64,000 nucleotides of DNA from Anthracocystis setariae (lineage: Eukaryota; Basidiomycota; Ustilaginomycetes; Ustilaginales; Ustilaginaceae): contig CAKMXJ010000001.1 of NCBI GenBank assembly GCA_928724745.1, forward strand, positions 496,001 through 560,000, in the 5' to 3' direction. Position numbers and translations under genes: made by a program. The notes below the pieces were generated by a model, which worked only from the letters and a program-made list of their open reading frames with translations, was not told the DNA's origin and ran no database searches. Shown here in pieces: positions 59,259 to 63,280 of this stretch (position 1 is its first letter; every line of letters starts with the position of its first letter).

Positions 59259-59721
59259 CCCTCACATTGCAGTTTCCTCCCTCCGAATGGTCACCTTGTC
59301 CAGATAAAGCTCGCTCGCCTGTAAAGAGACATCATTATTACCTTGCAATTCTCATAGAAGCAAGTCATCGCCATGGAAGCCTCACCGTTATGAAGTCAGA
59401 AGTATATCTAGCAGGCGTCTGTTGAACAATCAAAGCATGCTGCGATTTTTACGCTTCTGTTAGATCATTTTATCGCACGTGATGCGATCCGGCCAAAGCT
59501 GGAGCTGGACAAGTCGCAATTCCATCATCTCCATTTCCAACCGCCCTATCCTTCGTCGTCACTTCGGCTCTCTCCCCATCACTGCAACCTCACCATACCA
59601 TTCAGGTGTGTACACCTCCATCAGCATCCAATTCAATCATCTCAGCAGGTGAATTCTGACCCTTTGTTCCGTCACATTTCGTCTGACTCGACCGAACTCG
59701 ACTCGTTCTACAGATTCAGAC
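59259..59721. promoter_or_regulatory. Upstream region of small mitochondrial-type gene, probable leader intron
   Basis: 463 bases. A GTGAAT donor-like site near 59649 and a CTACAG acceptor ending at 59713, eight bases before the ATG, suggest a short 5'-leader intron with CTGAC-like branch sites. Otherwise no gene is seen. Confidence 0.4.
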
Positions 59722-60075
59722 ATGTCGGTCGCAGCAAGCGTTCTCGGTTACGCCGGTCTCGGCTTCATCACACGTTGCTACGCTCTTGGTCTTCAGAAGC
59801 GTAACATCTTCGAAAGTGAGTATGACTCGGATTCAACATCATCTTTACCACATACTCTATCTGGATGCATGGGGTGGAGTTTGTGAACGAGTATTGCTGA
59901 CAATGCTTCGTCTTACTTTGCAGATCTTGGAGGCCATGCTATGATGATGGGCGCTTTCGGTACGCTTGGATACTACTTGCACGGCTTGGAGGGAAGACAG
60001 TTGGAATTGATCGCAAAGAAGAAGGAACAGATCTTGAAGAACCGCGAACGTCTCGCGGCTTCCAACGACGAGTAA
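59722..60075 (+). CDS. Small mitochondrial-type membrane protein, complex I accessory (NUXM-like) candidate, two exons
   Basis: Exon 1 (59722-59815) encodes MSVAASVLGYAGLGFITRCY and then ALGLQKRNIFE. A GTGAGT donor (59816) and CAG acceptor (ending 59923) join exon 2 (59924-60075), which continues NLGGHAMMMGAFGTLGYYLH and ends with a charged helix (AKKKEQILKNRERLAASNDE). The 81-residue product has two hydrophobic helices and a basic C-terminal helix, typical of small subunits of inner-membrane respiratory complexes. From memory it resembles fungal proteins annotated as the complex I subunit NUXM, but I cannot verify this. The gene model is firm (frame, splice signals, composition); the function is tentative. 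Confidence 0.8.
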
Positions 60076-60589: not shown

Positions 60590-61611
60590 TTACTTTCGGC
60601 CCTTACCCTTGGCTGCCTTCTTGGAGATAGGCGTACCAGCCCTGGCCTCCCTACCACCGACACTCATCCAATCCAGATCTTCCTGACCGAACTTGACGTT
60701 TCCACCGCTAGCCCCAGCCTTAGCTCCGCTTGGCGGAGCGGAGGCTTCCGTCTCCTGGAACCTCCTCATGAACCTACCCAGCCTACCGCTGTCATCCCCG
60801 GCATCTCCACCCACCTTTCGTTCCTGACCGGGATTCCAGAGCGGGTGGTTGGTCGGATCTCTTGTCAGACGAGTCAAGCGACGCGGCGAAGTAGTGGTGA
60901 GCTGAATCGACGAGCCATCGGCGAGAATGGTGGTGGACGAGAACTTGGGGACCGGACGAGGCAGAGGAGACTGGACAAGCGCTGATGGGTCACGCGATTG
61001 GGCGGTGGAAGATGTAGCGAAACCACGAGCCTGGGAAGCGATGCAAGAAGTAGAATAGGCACGAACAGTGTTGAAAGCCGAGGAAGAGGCGGTCGCAAAG
61101 GAAGCGGAAGAGGAAGCGGCGGCGGTGGCAGCCTGGTATTGAGCAGCCATTTCGCGACAGCTCTTGCGTTCGGGCTTCTTGCCAGCCTTGAGGTCGGCGA
61201 TCTGCTTGGCTCGTGCTTGTTTGATGCTGTCATTGTTGCCGAGCTCCGTTTCTTTGGTCATGCGGAGTTCTGGTGGACAGAAGAGTGCAGCAGAGGGAGA
61301 TTCATCAGCTGAGCTCTGCATACATACTATGAGAGGCTCTGTCTGTACTTACCGTATGCGTTCTTGTCCTGCTTCCACTTGCCCTGGACGACATTCTGGC
61401 GAAGTACCGACACGATCTCGTCACCCATTTTGAGTCCTTCATCGATCTTGGCAGCGTCGGTTTCCTGTGAAGCGATCTTGAAGCGACGGCGAGTCTCGTC
61501 CCGAGCAGCCGAGACGGCATGATGATCGCCTTCGAACGTCTTGCGCGATGTGCGCAGAAGGCGCTTGTAAAGGCCAATGGCACGTTGGCGCTGTGCCACT
61601 GTAAACGACAT
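60590..61611 (-). CDS. Fusion of complex III assembly factor Mzm1 (LYR family) with mitochondrial ribosomal protein bL31m
   Basis: Exon 1 (61611-61353) encodes an LYR-family head: RAIGLYKRLLRTSRKTF (LYK at residues 13-15), later EGLKMGDEIVSVLRQNVVQG. The GTAAGT donor and CCAG acceptor (ending 61270) lead to exon 2 (61269-60590), where ELRMTKETELGNNDSIKQAR completes the Mzm1 C terminus (yeast has HKDTELGDNETI). Without any stop the frame runs on through an Ala/Ser/Arg presequence-like segment (about residues 127-180, starting at M127) into ILADGSSIQLTTTSPRRLTR and LTRDPTNHPLWNPGQ, then GRLGRFMRRFQE, matching yeast Mrpl36/bL31m. The total is 312 residues. Mzm1 stabilises the Rieske protein in the matrix; bL31m is a mitoribosomal large-subunit protein. 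Internal processing or alternative initiation at M127 could release two proteins. Confidence 0.88.
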
Positions 61612-62329: not shown

Positions 62330-63280
62330 ATGCGAGTTTTGGCAGCATTCAATTGGCTGCTCATCACGTTGCAGATCGTTTCTGCGACTCAGCAGTATCA
62401 TCTACATGAACATGGATTCGCCAAGGCAAAGCGAGCAGTGATCGGCCAAAAGCGCGGATCTGTTCAGGGTCAGGTTAAGCTCATCCGGCGTGCGGGGGGC
62501 GAGGGAGCGGGTACGTACAGAATGCAGCATGATTGCACTTCCGCTTTAGTCTCAACCCACTGACACTTTGATCTGATCTATGCCAAACCATGCTGACCAT
62601 GGCTAGTCAACGGGATCCGTGAGATCGTCGAGAAGTTTGAGGGGACAGGCGCACGCGAAGCTACGCAGCACCATGTTCCTACAGACTCGAGAAACGCCCT
62701 CAATGATCGCCTGATACCTGAACCCTCAAGACCATTGACTGGTTTTGTCAGGCCAGCAGAGATTTTCTCGAGCCAGGAACACACAGCGCGTCCCTTGACT
62801 GCCGAGGAACTCGATCGCGTTAACGGCCATCAGCATTCAGATTACAGAGCGACACTTCAAATGCATGGACAGAGGCTCGACGAGCATATAGATCTGATTC
62901 GAAAGCAGCAGATCCTGGACGAATTGAACCACCAACAGATGGGGAGTTACGAGCACAGGCTCGCGACACTGGAAGAGGTCGCCGCGGCGAACAACAAGAA
63001 GCTTAGCTCGGTGTCAAAGTCACGTTTGTCGAAGACCGCAATCGCTGCTCTGTTTGCGATGGCTGGTGTCGATGGGGTTCTGAGCATCGCTTCAACTCAC
63101 AGTAATGCCAAAGCGCTCAAGGCACAGTCGGACCAGATCGCGGAACAAGGCAAGGAGATCGACCGTCTTCGCGCAGCTCAGCCGCCTTCGACTCTCGCTT
63201 CAAATGCTGGTCTGGCTCAACCTGGGGCAGGCGCCGCTACCACAGGCTCGGGTGCAGCTACCGGTGGAGGACTGGTTTAG
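62330..63280 (+). CDS. Predicted secreted protein with dibasic cleavage sites, candidate effector (two exons)
   Basis: Exon 1 (62330-62510) encodes a signal peptide (MRVLAAFNWLLITLQIVSAT) and then a basic region with three dibasic sites (KR at 34-35 and 41-42, RR at 53-54), possible Kex2 sites. The GTACGT donor and GCTAG acceptor (ending 62606, with CTGAC branch site) join exon 2 (62607-63280), giving 284 residues. Exon 2 is polar with a predicted coiled coil (ELDRVNGHQHSDYRATLQMH through HRLATLEEVAAANNKK), a moderately hydrophobic stretch near 203-222 (KTAIAALFAMAGVDGVLSIA), and an Ala/Gly/Thr-rich tail. No domain is recognised. There are no cysteines in the part I read, so it is not a disulfide-rich effector. 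It could be a secreted effector, cell-surface protein or pro-peptide. Confidence 0.8.

Follow-up and report, generated by a model that had tools for sequence, protein, structure and literature searches.

A predicted mitochondrial tandem precursor joining Mzm1 and bL31m in Anthracocystis setariae and other Ustilaginomycotina

How might a single reading frame that joins two mitochondrial proteins give rise to both of them? The question is raised by a gene of Anthracocystis setariae in a stretch of 64,000 nucleotides (contig CAKMXJ010000001.1, positions 496,001 to 560,000; the whole stretch is called the window here). Its first part is Mzm1, a LYR protein known for keeping the Rieske Fe/S subunit of complex III stable, and its second part is the mitochondrial ribosomal protein bL31m. 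An earlier note, made from the sequence alone, had proposed that one frame joins the two, and this holds: the protein has 312 amino acids with no stop between the parts, and Pfam and profile matches support both. The gene has one frame and two kinds of domain, is present in a single copy, is widely conserved (of 175 sequences examined, the fused set comprises 79, including the window protein), and carries a conserved cleavage-type motif. It very probably encodes a mitochondrial tandem precursor of Mzm1 and bL31m that is cut in the matrix.

Gene structure

The gene lies on the minus strand and has two exons, running from the ATG at 61611 to the stop codon at 60590; the spliced frame crosses from the Mzm1 part into the bL31m part uninterrupted. 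The splice was inferred from the GT-AG borders, the frame, and homology across the junction. The features, in the numbering of the window, are as follows.

61353 to 61611, minus strand: exon 1, encoding residues 1-86 of the Mzm1/LYRM7 part from the start codon onward; the intron interrupts codon 87
61587-61420, minus strand: Complex1_LYR match (Pfam)
61270 to 61352, minus strand: single GT-AG intron of 83 nucleotides within the Mzm1 C-terminal part, placed by sequence, frame, and homology
60590 to 61269, minus strand: exon 2, with the Mzm1 C-terminal signature (TELGNND...), linker, bL31m, and stop codon
61154 to 61269, minus strand: Mzm1 C-terminal tail, residues 87-125 (TELGNNDSIK..., Cys124)
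60962 to 61150, minus strand: linker, residues 127-189, Ala/Ser-rich with one acidic residue, beginning at the non-conserved Met127
61049 to 61063, minus strand: candidate cleavage site 1, R156-A-Y-S-T160, 46 residues before the bL31m core
61013 to 61027, minus strand: candidate cleavage site 2, R168-G-F-A-T172, 34 residues before the bL31m core
60593 to 60961, minus strand: bL31m part, residues 190-312, including the DLDWMS...KGKGRK tail
60946-60830, minus strand: bL31_N match (Pfam)

Across the genome (21.5 Mb, 36 contigs searched), the fused gene is the single place found for each half. Other Complex1_LYR places are different proteins, since an Mzm1 query finds only the fused gene, exon by exon.

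Identity of the two halves

The Complex1_LYR match covers residues 9-64 (E 5.4e-6, above the Pfam cut-off), while bL31_N covers residues 195-233 (E 8.6e-5, below the cut-off). Searched with phmmer against the yeast and Neurospora bL31m chains of solved structures, the whole protein gave E values of 2.3e-6 and 1.7e-5, and a profile built from 11 fused-family bL31m parts gave 2.3e-12 (3j6b_V) and 1.7e-11. Because of these matches, the assignment of the C-terminal half to bL31m by sequence is firm, despite the Pfam result. For the other half, a profile of 10 Mzm1 parts was aligned by hhalign to P0171, a Huiozyma protein named Mzm1p, with probability 98.4. The NVVQG and TELG signatures are invariant columns in the Mzm1-part alignment, and by our own reading of the sequences they appear specific to Mzm1; the LYR motif itself is L-Y-K here. 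NCBIfam models under curated cut-offs matched only as L31, with no match to the Mzm1 part.

In the structural model of the orthologue P0001, fold confidence indicates two separately folding parts; the first is a helix bundle of the LYR type, its LYR helix starts at residue 5, and a low-confidence stretch between the parts corresponds to the linker, which is probably disordered. A VIA-align comparison covered mainly model residues 2-81 and is uninformative on bL31m. In 67 of 78 fused sequences the Mzm1 tail has a Cys no more than 36 amino acids beyond the TEL[GV] signature, and a Cys also occurs in the last 15 residues of 5 of 12 Mzm1 sequences lacking a bL31m core; as a feature of the fused family, the conserved Cys is suggestive only. 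The C-terminal tail of bL31m is also conserved (DDLDWMS..GGREARAG....KGKK; window 60590-60745), partly in common with stand-alone Tremellomycete bL31m.

Distribution and origin of the fusion

The Mzm1 signature and the bL31m core occur together in 75 of the 80 sequences from the first protein search, and a second search added three; the N-terminal LYR part is also present in 62 of the 79 fused sequences. Dating of the fusion across basidiomycetes, which the earlier note had suggested, found both parts in every retrieved sequence with a Ustilaginomycotina name (30/30, from smuts, Exobasidiomycetes, and Malassezia) and showed no fusion in the retrieved Agaricomycotina sequences, where Mzm1 and bL31m are separate proteins. 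Two of the 30 are both from Tilletia horrida, and the model of Thecaphora P0020 is without the LYR part. The named fused sequences include Ustilago, Sporisorium, Testicularia, Violaceomyces, Exobasidium, Meira, Ceraceosorus, Tilletia, Sympodiomycopsis, Parajaminaea, and nine Malassezia; class and subphylum were looked up for Sympodiomycopsis and Malassezia, and the other genera we take to belong to Ustilaginomycotina. Two further classes of the subphylum, Moniliellomycetes and Peribolosporomycetes, are absent by name among the retrieved sequences.

A bL31m search, which scored only candidates sharing most words, returned Tremellomycete and agaric-type proteins of roughly 130-200 amino acids without Mzm1. 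An Mzm1 search returned first exons of fused genes and, outside the subphylum, short Mzm1 proteins, including those of Papiliotrema, Tephrocybe, Pseudohyphozyma, Huiozyma, and Apophysomyces. In Papiliotrema laurentii (Tremellomycetes), bL31m (P0119) and Mzm1 (P0166) lie on different contigs, whose lengths also differ (1,333,109 and 1,939,404). One Mzm1 (P0170) from Pucciniomycotina, a barely sampled subphylum, has no bL31m. A separate Mzm1 record, P0080 from Mucor flavus (268 amino acids), has an unrelated hydrophobic C-terminal part, which may mean a further fusion of Mzm1 or a mistake in the gene model.

A tree was built from 48 chosen bL31m cores, and one of its branches, supported at 99/99, has the 18 stand-alone sequences on one side and all 25 fused sequences on the other. 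Five sequences on the fused side were called without Mzm1 (P0076, P0078, P0081, P0082, and P0092), and with these the label "fused" alone requires five changes on the tree. P0076 and P0081 match P0161 and P0156, which are Mzm1 first exons, in the length of their longest contig (7252 and 7248), and so look like pieces of the same genes. The long branch of P0092 is uncertainly placed, and a grouping of the fused sequences with the other four was not rejected (approximately unbiased test, p-AU 0.40). Because of the 99/99 split, the likeliest history for these sequences is that the fusion arose once, in Ustilaginomycotina. P0078 and P0082, which lack the Mzm1 part, may represent a re-split gene, an extra intron, or a truncated model; P0078 starts with a presequence-like stretch.

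The linker and its cleavage-type motif

Linkers of the fused sequences range from 31 to 114 amino acids. The window linker is presequence-like, as the earlier note had described it. The motif R-x-[FYL]-[SAT]-[ST], an R-2/R-3 type motif that fits the way in which the matrix processing peptidase (MPP) and Icp55 cleave presequences, is present in 71 of 79 fused linkers; 1000 shuffles of the linkers gave a mean of 4.3 and a maximum of 11. After similar linkers were collapsed, the motif was found in 20 of 21 (60% identity) and 8 of 10 (50% identity), with shuffle means of 1.1 and 0.5. When 45 chosen sequences were aligned, T160 was the only listed position from residue 99 to residue 190 with at least 90% conservation. 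The low-complexity stretch of the bL31m tail, which is shorter (mean 34 versus 71 amino acids for the linker), has the motif in none of the 39 sequences where it could be delimited. No acidic residue occurs in the 25 amino acids around the first motif in 58 of 70 measured sequences. For comparison, the plant ICP55 consensus is RX(F/Y/I/L) followed across the cut by (S/A)(S/T), and is described in PMC8847149 as very like the yeast and mammalian sites.

Counted back from the bL31m core, the strict motifs of the window protein lie at 46 (R156) and 34 (R168) residues, and eight stand-alone agaric-type bL31m proteins have R-x-[VI]-S-S exactly 34 residues before it (32 stand-alone-looking sequences were measured, four of which are or may be pieces of fused genes). 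In 49 fused sequences not of the Ustilaginomycete type, the last strict motif lies at a median of 32 residues (24-48) before the core. Ustilaginomycete-type sequences have a strict motif at 46-61 residues in 22 of 24 cases, and R-x(1-2)-[FYLI]-[SAT]-[ST], strict or relaxed, at 34-35 in 16 of 24. Because the second site of the window protein, at 34, matches the stand-alone agaric-type proteins, the linker looks like the retained presequence of bL31m itself. We read R168 as the likelier old site and R156 as one that the Ustilaginomycete type has in addition or instead; in that type the upstream strict motif would generally be an extra or shifted site. Ustilaginomycete-type linkers often have two presequence-end motifs about 12-25 residues apart, and other linkers mostly have one; gain of a second cleavage site in the Ustilaginomycete type is possible from this pattern.

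Several observations weigh against cleavage at these motifs or against the linker being an inherited presequence. The acid-free run of the window linker, 53 amino acids, is reached in 7% of shuffles and is not unusual alone. Eight of the 79 fused sequences are without the strict motif: four from Tilletia have FST without Arg at -2 (a fifth, P0069, has RSFSS), Meira P0056 has TFSTS without Arg, P0009 has RAYHT, and P0085 has RSFSI; P0058, also without the strict motif, looks like a damaged model. The distance of the strict motif from the core varies (for the last one, the median is 58 and the range 34-61 among the 22 of 24 Ustilaginomycete-type sequences that have it), and most stand-alone Tremellomycete proteins are without the motif (several are of the R-A-A-S-T style).

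Cleavage by MPP, which the earlier note had offered as one of two ways to obtain two proteins, is nevertheless probable given the conserved motif. The genome also has one AMP_N gene of the aminopeptidase P family, to which Icp55 belongs, and M16 peptidase genes, candidates at the family level for Icp55 and the MPP subunits. In the proposed history, a stand-alone bL31m with a cleavable presequence would have been joined in frame to the C-terminus of Mzm1 in an ancestor of Ustilaginomycotina. The whole chain would be imported as a single precursor, and in the matrix MPP would cut at the end of the internal presequence, after A157 and/or G169. Icp55 would then trim the exposed Tyr (Y158) or Phe. 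The predicted products are free Mzm1 with a tail and mature bL31m (S159 or A171 to 312) for the mitoribosome, each presumably functioning separately.

Alternative explanations

The second way proposed in the earlier note was leaky or internal initiation, in which a start at Met127 would give bL31m with an N-terminal presequence and the long product would supply Mzm1. The internal Met is where the earlier note had placed it, near 61150 (codon 61150-61148), with G at -3 and G at +4; a presequence-like stretch follows directly, and the Met is kept in many Ustilaginomycete-type sequences. However, it is Val in P0006, P0008, P0014, and P0018, 30 of the 79 fused linkers have no Met at all, and the spliced message has the start codon and six further AUGs (four out of frame) before Met127. 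These features disfavour initiation at Met127, which we regard as quite unlikely.

If the chain were instead left uncut and acted as one protein, its LYR domain would sit on the large subunit of the mitoribosome. A LYR domain is able to recruit the mitochondrial acyl carrier protein and Rieske. The cleavage-type motif, however, is the conserved element of otherwise diverging linkers and sits where the presequence ends in stand-alone bL31m, and an uncut chain is very unlikely.

Two transcripts or alternative splicing might part the halves, with the joined frame as a minor form. The five fused-side sequences called without the Mzm1 part would fit such an arrangement, although P0076 and P0081 are apparently gene pieces, as noted above. 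The linker needs no intron, and many different sequences (for example P0010, P0014-P0019, P0022, and P0026) have a second-exon frame that stays open from the Mzm1 signature on and across bL31m, which makes separate transcripts highly improbable. An assembly error or gene-model artefact that lost a stop codon, a doubt raised in the earlier note, has practically no chance of being correct: homologues fused in the same order in other sequences refute it, with both parts in one protein in all 30 named Ustilaginomycotina sequences and in 79 overall. A 2A-peptide polyprotein was also rejected; NPGP, the 2A motif, is absent at the joint in 79 of 79 sequences.

Other features of the window

At about 59700-60075 on the plus strand, a two-exon neighbour (81 amino acids as joined by eye) converges on the fused gene and is weakly like the complex I subunit NDUFC2 (PF06374, E 0.09, below cut-off). 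An open reading frame at 62330-62563, on the plus strand and upstream of the fused gene, starts with a stretch that resembles a signal peptide by eye. Rfam gave no match within the window, and a bacterial promoter and terminator scan of it is uninformative for a fungus.

Implications

Database names for the fused protein are "Mitochondrial zinc maintenance protein 1" or "related to MZM1", while two metagenome records are named "ribosomal protein L31". Each name covers one half, so the other is hidden; records named for Mzm1 hide bL31m in Ustilaginomycotina, and surveys of mitoribosomal proteins may miss it. If the protein is cleaved as predicted, a tandem precursor has been conserved across a subphylum of fungi, both in plant smuts and in Malassezia yeasts, and the diverged linkers form a natural series showing what MPP needs at an internal site.

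The coupling of respiratory assembly with mitoribosome supply, suggested in the earlier note, is plausible. A further proposal is that the joint is kept for its function: co-import would tie the supply of the complex III chaperone to that of the mitoribosome subunit, and part of the chain, under regulation, would stay uncut and bring the LYR domain, with acyl carrier protein, to the large subunit during its assembly, so that Fe/S or fatty-acid state would gate translation. We consider this very unlikely. A LYR protein acts in human mitoribosome assembly, according to PMC7312649, and for this reason regulatory coupling is worth testing, no more. If true, a functional joint would, together with the Rsm22-Cox11 fusion of fission yeast, point to a device that fungi have used repeatedly to link mitoribosome proteins with factors of respiratory assembly.

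Comparison with known systems

Tandem precursors of this kind are already known, and this member is unusually well conserved. No description of the Mzm1-bL31m pair was found in the open-licence papers searched, a scope that leaves room for publication elsewhere. The words bL31m, fused, fusion, and Rsm22 are all absent from PMC8998825. The Angerer 2015 survey (PMC4381221), in the text and table portions examined, records fusions of LYR proteins with various domains, LYRM7 with a CS domain being one of them, has no bL31m fusion, and cautions that many fusion entries may be annotation errors.

Each half has its own relatives. The first resembles Mzm1/LYRM7 in its LYR-family domain, its NVVQG and TELG signatures, and its profile match to Huiozyma Mzm1p, and differs in having bL31m at its C-terminus. 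The second has sequence kinship to the solved yeast (Mrpl36 / YmL36) and Neurospora bL31m, but here is the C-terminal half of a larger precursor. Arg5,6 of Saccharomyces cerevisiae is cleaved internally by MPP into two proteins, as PMC8847149 describes from Friedl 2020, and a cut inside the precursor is likewise predicted for Mzm1-bL31m. MPP also removes a targeting sequence from the N-terminus of Arg5,6, whereas in the structural model of the orthologue the Mzm1 part appears to start directly with the LYR helix.

The fission yeast parallel drawn in the earlier note is apt. In Rsm22-Cox11, as described in PMC12375894, a mitoribosome-associated protein and a respiratory-complex assembly factor are made as one precursor that is cut after import. 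The likeness lies in the joining of a mitoribosome protein to a respiratory assembly factor; Rsm22-Cox11 serves the small subunit and complex IV, while the fused gene joins bL31m of the large subunit to Mzm1 of complex III, with cleavage predicted. Mzm1-bL31m thus adds to Rsm22-Cox11 as a pairing of a mitoribosome protein with a respiratory assembly protein.
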